From assembly GCF_946479755.1 (NCBI RefSeq), contig NZ_CAMLHC010000017.1, forward strand, positions 62,001-126,000: DNA of 64,000 bases. Reading direction: 5' to 3'. Below, one piece after another: positions 41,529 through 41,819 of the stretch. A model generated the notes under the pieces. The model was not told the origin of the DNA. It did no database searches and saw only the letters and a program-made list of their open reading frames with translations. Each line of letters starts with the position of its first letter. The stretch's first letter is position 1. Source of the stretch: an uncultured Chitinophaga sp. (lineage in GTDB: Bacteria; Bacteroidota; Bacteroidia; Chitinophagales; Chitinophagaceae). The translations under genes were made by a program, and so were the position numbers.

Positions 41529-41819
41529 ATGAAAAAGAAGTTATTCGCCCTTGGGCTGACCTGCTTTCTGCTGTTGGCAGCACTGCCTACGTTTGCCATG
41601 CAGATTTACATTAAGTCAGTTAAAGGTGGTGGAACCATCACGCTTGAGGTAGAAAAAACGGACACTGTTGAAAAAATAAGGGAATTAGTGGCCGACAAAA
41701 CCGATATTCCTCCGGGGTGGCAAAGGCTGATATTTGCCGGTAAACAATTAGAAGATGGCAGAACCTTATCAGATTATAATATCCAACATGGGGCAACTAT
41801 TCATCTGGTGGTAGGGTAA
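41529..41819 (+). CDS. Secreted ubiquitin homologue
   Basis: 96 residues from ATG 41529 (the frame is open from an ATG at 41493, which would add 12 residues before the signal peptide). A predicted signal peptide starts MKKKLFALGLTCFLLLAAL and ends PTFA at residue 23; cleavage there leaves a mature 73-residue protein beginning with the Met that matches Met1 of ubiquitin. By hand alignment to recalled human ubiquitin, about 46 of 72 positions are identical, including an unbroken block from Gln41 to Gln62 (RLIFAGKQLEDGRTLSDYN). Kept: Lys6, Lys33, Lys48, Ile44, His68, Val70. Lost: Lys11, 27, 29 and 63, and the LRLRGG tail, replaced by a single terminal Gly after LVV. One Gly is inserted near position 11. 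A secreted Bacteroides fragilis ubiquitin (BfUbb) is known to act as an antagonist of related strains; a similar role here is inference. Followed by a perfect terminator. Confidence 0.95.
   Translation: MKKKLFALGLTCFLLLAALPTFAMQIYIKSVKGGGTITLEVEKTDTVEKIRELVADKTDIPPGWQRLIFAGKQLEDGRTLSDYNIQHGATIHLVVG

Follow-up and report, generated by a model that had tools for sequence, protein, structure and literature searches.

Ubiquitin is usually regarded as a eukaryotic signal, and a gene for it that stands alone in a Chitinophaga genome, behind a signal-peptide-like start, raises the question of what the protein might do outside the cell and how the gene came to be there. The gene lies at 41529-41819 (+ strand; 96 aa, stop codon included in the coordinates) of a 64,000-nucleotide stretch of DNA from an uncultured Chitinophaga sp., referred to here as the window. 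The frame translates to MKKKLFALGLTCFLLLAALPTFA followed by MQIYIK...HLVVG; an alternative in-frame ATG at 41493 would give 108 aa, and the alignment to the protein of Chitinophaga nivalis begins at MKKK. The first 23 residues (MKKK...LPTFA, 41529-41597, + strand) read as a signal peptide, with KKK, a hydrophobic run and PTFA in that order, and ubiquitin Met1 comes directly after. Cleavage is predicted directly before this Met1, between PTFA and M, and C. nivalis has the same type of junction. The product would be a mature ubiquitin domain of 73 aa (41598-41816, + strand) that ends in VVG, at ubiquitin residue 72. Pfam assigns the protein to ubiquitin (PF00240, 88.3 bits, E 2.8e-25, against a curated cut-off of 25.4 bits). 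The first-pass annotation had proposed a ubiquitin that starts at Met1 after a signal peptide, and the frame and the Pfam score, together with the junction as read from the sequence, bear this out.

Over 71 residues aligned to human ubiquitin, we counted 46 identities and 25 mismatches, with two gap positions, in keeping with the roughly 46 of 72 estimated by hand beforehand. Residues 41-62 are those of human ubiquitin without a break (0/22 changed), and I44, H68, V70, R42 and K48 are retained, while K63 has become H and L8 has become V; the unbroken stretch, K48, the I44/H68/V70 patch and the change at K63 had all been pointed out earlier and read the same way in the alignment. A single additional Gly sits in the first beta hairpin, and the mature protein has no cysteine. 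The LRLRGG tail is missing, as was also noted at the outset: the chain ends VVG at residue 72, G stands at the position of R72, and of R72, R74, G75 and G76 none is kept (0/4). Because of this loss, a protein of this sequence is not open to conjugation by the usual route. The AlphaFold2 model (pLDDT 87.9) was built from a 50-row alignment of ubiquitins, so that its predicted beta-grasp ubiquitin fold is not independent of the sequence; among the Foldseek PDB matches listed, the best is ubiquitin, the first one with a TM to target of 0.94 and 61% identity. The structure comparison that the annotation had asked for thus gave ubiquitin. A ThiS/MoaD-type origin, which it had named as the outcome that would speak against its claim, is not supported. 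An identity as a ThiS/MoaD or BIL ubiquitin-like protein was considered and rejected, since Pfam gives ubiquitin and not those families; the only Pfam matches at E up to 0.001 are ubiquitin, Rad60-SLD and a weak TBK1_ULD. In summary, judged by its sequence, the window gene encodes a strongly diverged ubiquitin.

A Pfam scan of all 55 window ORFs of at least 90 aa found no E1, E2 or deubiquitinase family, in line with the earlier remark that no E1, E2 or protease gene is nearby; a putative zinc metallopeptidase (Peptidase_Mx1, 52775-53656) lies 11 kb downstream and has no known ubiquitin link. The 123 bases directly upstream of the gene (41406-41528, + strand) are common to the C. nivalis ubiquitin locus and are likely to contain the promoter. 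The exact Bacteroidetes -7 box (TAnnTTTG) does not occur in the approximately 150 bases upstream of any of five Chitinophaga ubiquitin genes, and two sigma-70-type sites near the window gene are at chance level. Downstream, a terminator-like hairpin of 12 pairs (41840-41866) begins 21 bases past the stop codon; it was detected on the - strand, and A and T runs flank both sides. It is followed by an ORF of 171 aa with a signal-peptide-like start and no Pfam family (42006-42521, + strand), relatives of which were present in 5/13 genomes examined and absent from the two nearest genomes; no sign of cooperation with the ubiquitin was seen in these 13. No repeats of note flank the ubiquitin gene.

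A tRNA-Leu (CAG) gene at 41063-41147 (+ strand), whose 3′ end lies 381 bases upstream of the ubiquitin gene, bears on how that gene may have arrived. The gene on the other side of the tRNA (40562-40966) has relatives in 74/79 Chitinophaga genomes, the best of them (99%) in two genomes designated G817 and G801. In all ten Chitinophaga relatives compared, out of 30 loci fetched at this tRNA-Leu, the DNA homology ends at window positions 41147-41156, that is, at the tRNA 3′ end. G817 and G801 are the nearest genomes (94% and 92% identical in their DNA as far as the tRNA-Leu), neither has a ubiquitin match, and homology to G801 restarts at 43165. The segment 41148-43164, missing at this place in the compared relatives, carries the ubiquitin gene, the secreted-type ORF and, as its final gene, one for a DUF1905 protein (Pfam; 42743-43060, + strand), and its G+C content drops to 35-44% around the ubiquitin gene. 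Since the two nearest genomes have no ubiquitin match and homology breaks off at the end of the tRNA in 10/10 comparisons, the ubiquitin gene is probably a recent gain behind the tRNA-Leu, by what we infer to be transfer. A duplicated tRNA end that might serve as an attachment site was searched for and not found.

The site behind the tRNA-Leu is variable among the Chitinophaga relatives, because different genes occupy it: G817 has a phage-type integrase gene approximately 0.3 kb behind the same tRNA-Leu (locus L172, 5426-6511), and G801 has purK and purE in place of the ubiquitin segment (L173, 4301-5922, - strand). Helix-turn-helix, HATPase and transposase genes come after the integrase in G817. 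The purK/purE pair is not among the ORFs behind the tRNA-Leu in G817, G858 or G806, nor in the window ORF list.

A search with the full protein was dominated by eukaryotic polyubiquitin among the best 120 of 7976 matches, and the closest protein among these 120 was "ubiquitin-like protein [Chitinophaga nivalis]" (P0027, 85% identical). When the search was restricted to residues 1-46, only the window protein and the C. nivalis protein remained. The two proteins share the type of signal peptide, a near-equal length, a rebuilt helix face and the 123 bases upstream of the gene; the C. nivalis gene, by contrast, has a different chromosomal position that is not near tRNA-Leu, and its product has R72 as the last residue and is without the additional Gly. 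At the DNA level the two match over 421 columns at 78% identity, ending 2 bases past the stop codon, and beyond the gene and its 123 upstream bases the 2-kb window segment shares nothing with the 19.9 kb C. nivalis stretch compared. Hence the nearest protein and the locus relatives both come from Chitinophaga, which agrees with the Chitinophaga-like carrier suggested at the outset.

For the whole gene against that of C. nivalis we obtained a dN of 0.092 and a dS of 1.0 with NG86, and 0.090 and 0.75 with YN00; NG86 gave 0.092 and 1.27 for the signal peptide, and 0.092 and 0.93 for the mature part. The resulting dN/dS of approximately 0.1 comes from one pair of only 95 codons with dS near 1. Nineteen residues differ from human ubiquitin yet are the same in the window and C. 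nivalis proteins; 11 of these fall within residues 22-40, whereas the stretch 41-62 has none. Over residues 1-71, differences from human ubiquitin number 25 in the window protein and 24 in BfUbb, the secreted ubiquitin of Bacteroides fragilis; the median for 98 ubiquitin rows among the matches listed is 10. From the dN/dS together with the 19 departures common to both species, the protein therefore appears to have left the eukaryotic constraint and to be held in a new form, in which the rebuilt helix face (residues 22-40) is likely to be a new contact surface.

Within the genus, four of the 79 Chitinophaga genomes have a ubiquitin, with 86%, 59%, 58% and 50% identity to the window protein. These four genes lie in four unlike neighbourhoods, one of them adjoining tRNA-His, and none of the ORFs near them matches a neighbour of the window gene, ubiquitin excepted. 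All five Chitinophaga ubiquitins are stand-alone proteins without cysteine, and none ends in GG. Two of the five (L140 and L141) have extra residues between the signal-peptide-like start and the ubiquitin, so that there is no exact Met1 junction, and have lost parts of the I44/H68/V70 patch. More widely, a ubiquitin match was found in 1/395 genomes drawn from the class and in 3/394 drawn from a family, one of the latter at only 26% identity.

The clade of the window and C. nivalis proteins is firm (100/98). Deeper descent was addressed by topology tests on 35/106 bacterial rows and 12/104 eukaryotic rows plus human ubiquitin, in which, with approximately 72 columns, the tests gave a p-AU of 0.438 for the five Chitinophaga proteins as one clade, 0.173 for the window protein, C. 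nivalis and BfUbb as one clade, and 0.143 for all bacterial rows as one clade. A larger tree with 46 eukaryotic rows had only 4/148 inner branches well supported over approximately 72 columns and was not used for descent. The highest identity outside Chitinophaga (68% over residues 24-95) belongs to a protein from a viral-collection contig (L221); as sequence identities go, this is too close to the 46/71 of human ubiquitin to name a source. That protein (2998-3222 of L221, from a 132 kb contig) is a lone ubiquitin without a signal peptide that stops after LRLR.

To see how widely such proteins occur, one genome per species was scanned with the back-translated motif LI[FY][AS]GKxL[ED]D, which gave at least 118 loci; BfUbb itself does not fit the motif. 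An earlier genome scan with a two-row alignment, in which signal-peptide patterns were chosen, had found no relative. A phmmer ubiquitin match was present in at least 106 of 119 loci (the matches listed plus a Ruminococcus albus plasmid locus), in 109 ORFs. Among the matches listed, 98/109 ORFs passed the filters, 78 of these had a signal-peptide-like start as called by a simple hydropathy rule, and 14 of the 78 lacked a small residue at -1 with Met at +1. This exact junction occurs in at least 64 loci from 11 bacterial phyla (the plasmid counted as Bacillota) and one archaeal phylum, the phylum labels being the records' own, many of them from metagenome bins in which single labels may be wrong. 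Ten of the 78, among the matches listed, end no more than 12 residues past the ubiquitin, two of them (L087 and L102) only since the stretch is cut there.

Among ten proteins chosen for a Pfam scan of partner domains, four have an autotransporter domain, one a T9SS tail, one a dockerin, two an IPTL-CTERM, one an FGE-sulfatase domain and one InlB-type repeats. The ubiquitin is N-terminal in the autotransporters, from Rhodopirellula (L004), two Verrucomicrobiota bins (L112 and L115) and Pseudomonas turukhanskensis (L077), as well as in the T9SS-tail protein (L073), the dockerin protein (L009) and the IPTL-CTERM proteins (L016 and L063, start codons unclear). No NCBIfam model scored above its cut-off for the ubiquitin part in seven proteins scanned. 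Hence, as far as predicted signal peptides tell, the window gene is one of a far larger group of exported bacterial ubiquitins, which suggests that bacteria have often placed ubiquitin outside the cell.

Some members of the set are of a different kind. In Dyella sp. OK004 (L033, 4481-4846) a signal-peptide-like start precedes a ubiquitin ending LRLRGG that is 75/76 as in human, and in a Deltaproteobacteria bin (L074) such a start precedes a ubiquitin ending exactly LRLRGG; from their sequences, these two are possibly exported yet chemically complete ubiquitins. A Marinilabiliaceae bin (L014, 5182-6318) has a signal-peptide-like start with four successive ubiquitin matches. The mobilizable plasmid pRUMAL01 of R. 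albus 7 (L001, 2923-3663) encodes a signal-peptide-like start, a Met1 ubiquitin and a C-terminal extension; besides R. albus 7, the plasmid collection matched with two Pseudoalteromonas proteins at 43-44% identity. The phage collection gave no match to the window ubiquitin, and viral contigs gave 14 pattern matches and six relatives, none with the Chitinophaga signal peptide. A viral-collection contig of 15.7 kb (L220, 2947-3273) has a signal-peptide-like start and a ubiquitin ending LRLRGG, and its neighbours are, by eye, bacterial-looking and phage-like genes.

Reasons for placing a ubiquitin outside the cell were found described for BfUbb alone in the open-licence literature; it was the only secreted bacterial ubiquitin found in the part surveyed, and no title or abstract there was found that dealt with such proteins in Chitinophaga or with their spread over bacterial phyla. 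According to PMC5705921, BfUbb is a lone secreted ubiquitin in part of the B. fragilis strains, and its synthetic mature form inhibits 13/40 B. fragilis strains, while bovine ubiquitin had no activity on the strains tested. The same paper states that introducing the gene into a non-producer had no noticeable effect on it and that seemingly no immunity gene is needed. A citing sentence names a peptidyl-prolyl isomerase, in which Tyr119 is the key residue, as the reported target of BfUbb.

Because BfUbb, a secreted ubiquitin that also stands alone, is inhibitory to other strains in its pure mature form, the reading that we tentatively prefer for the window protein is that of an extracellular antagonist of other bacteria, which would bind non-covalently via its rebuilt helix face and by a contact unlike that of BfUbb. 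The gene would have been gained by transfer behind the tRNA-Leu gene, and its tail-less, diverged product would be exported via a signal peptide cut directly before Met1. The mature protein would then bind and block a protein of a competitor outside the cell, without conjugation, with the helix face (22-40) as contact surface while 41-62 stay eukaryote-like. No immunity gene would be required if the sequence of the target sets sensitivity, as reported for BfUbb. Export, cleavage, binding without conjugation and a bacterial target are what we infer here. Against such an antagonist, a signal peptide alone predicts the periplasm and not the medium, and the I44/H68/V70 patch remains, as a eukaryote-directed decoy would also keep it.

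Such a decoy, an exported non-conjugatable ubiquitin that occupies the ubiquitin-binding proteins of fungi, amoebae or nematodes encountered by the bacterium, would account for the eukaryote-like patch and stretch 41-62. H68 is kept in 96% of the 77 different signal-peptide-like ubiquitins among the matches listed, in a patch comparison that uses only L8, R42, Q49, H68 and V70, the motif itself forcing residues 43-48 and 50-52. In addition, PMC3352274 describes BfUbb as inhibiting ubiquitination in HeLa extract and binding human E1. However, a mimic is not expected to differ from human ubiquitin at 25/71 aligned residues when other bacterial ubiquitins, like that of Dyella, are near-identical to it; the R72 and C-terminal cysteine that BfUbb uses on E1 are missing from the window protein, and the window sequence showed no means of entry into eukaryotic cells. 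We therefore consider a decoy rather unlikely and rank the antagonist ahead of it.

The fused ubiquitins that elsewhere head autotransporter, T9SS-tail, dockerin and IPTL-CTERM proteins would fit a non-toxic module for binding to a surface or matrix, here without a partner domain; as neither the window protein nor any of the four other Chitinophaga ubiquitins is fused to another domain, this role seems improbable. Patchy presence and low G+C next to a tRNA are also what a functionless captured gene on its way to loss would show, but the low dN/dS in the signal peptide as well as in the mature part, and the upstream bases held in common with C. nivalis, make such decay very unlikely. Use in conjugation within the bacterial cell, of the kind seen in bacterial BIL and in archaeal systems, has only the fold and K48 in its favour; the signal peptide, the lack of a GG tail and the lack of E1, E2 and deubiquitinase families among the 55 window ORFs scanned render it scarcely credible.

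Returning to the antagonist, a broader form of it, to which we give slightly less credence, is that exported ubiquitins constitute a widespread, repeatedly assembled class of which BfUbb is only the first described member, with the Chitinophaga helix face as a weapon surface. Eukaryotic ubiquitin would have been captured and a signal peptide set exactly before Met1, and the products would be exported alone or at the front of a longer protein of the autotransporter, T9SS, dockerin or sorting-tail type; the Chitinophaga form would be a tail-less branch free of cysteine. The window adds a second Bacteroidota lineage with a predicted exported ubiquitin, and the gain is probably so recent that sister genomes without the gene exist; it is these gene-free sisters that make possible a clean comparison, with and without the gene, in near-equal backgrounds. 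If the antagonist reading is true, the use of ubiquitin as a weapon by bacteria would extend to lineages beyond that of the single known example, and if the Chitinophaga protein inhibits relatives without the disulfide tail of BfUbb, ubiquitin would be a scaffold for different killing surfaces.

Among known systems, eukaryotic ubiquitin shares with the window protein the predicted fold, the 46/71 identities and the identical residues 41-62; it has no signal peptide, whereas the window protein has no conjugation tail and has K11, K27, K29 and K63 replaced. Fused exported ubiquitins, such as those of R. albus 7 (WP_013483628.1) and Rhodopirellula, have the signal peptide and the Met1 start in common with it, but in them ubiquitin forms the N-terminal domain of a larger protein. 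Closer in layout are the ubiquitins of Flavobacterium (L037, L044, L046, L059 and L030, the last with an unclear start codon), which are lone, have a signal-peptide-like start and place AFS directly before M; unlike the window protein, they have 2-4 cysteines in the mature part, one of them in a short Pro-Cys tail. One of these (L044) shares 44/71 identities with it.

For the comparison with BfUbb, a protein of genome G878 was taken as BfUbb, since PDB entries 8hm3, 8hm1 and 8hm2 ("Putative ubiquitin") match it along the whole, or almost the whole, of the 75 residues given, and since it shows the DTV triplet, the DST triplet and the C-terminal cysteine, features described in PMC3352274. A second genome of the Bacteroides genus (G993, L181) has an identical protein; in the genus of Bacteroides nordii, ubiquitin matches were found in 3/158 genomes, and B. 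nordii itself (L109 / L183) encodes another ubiquitin-like protein, which has diverged strongly and is extended at its N-terminus. Among the PDB matches of three of the five FKBP-type PPIases that a B. fragilis genome has, none belonged to the BfUbb series. Both BfUbb and the window protein come from a lone gene that is present in part of its lineage at a variable place, and both have a signal peptide cut before Met1 and a strongly diverged mature chain without GG, export and cleavage being predictions from sequence for the window protein. They differ in that BfUbb has two C-terminal cysteines in a mature chain of 76 residues and lacks H68 and V70, whereas the window protein stops at 72, has no cysteine pair and keeps both residues. 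The contact of BfUbb with its target reportedly needs the C-terminal disulfide or cysteine pair, an account attributed to Jiang et al. in Nat Microbiol in 2024. By that account, because it has neither cysteine nor tail, a protein with the window sequence cannot use this contact, and for the same reason the known target of BfUbb is an unsafe guess for it.

The first-pass annotation had named BfUbb as the nearest known parallel and the Chitinophaga carrier as an extension to a new lineage. It is indeed the closest parallel in print that was found, and the carrier is a Chitinophaga; however, Bacteroides is not the sole other lineage, as the same junction occurs in many phyla, and the nearest relative is the C. 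nivalis protein. BfUbb has 38/71 identities to the window protein, fewer than human ubiquitin has, and 48/72 to human ubiquitin. Hence, on these sequence comparisons, the window gene is not a copy of BfUbb, which is its closest studied parallel yet not its closest relative.
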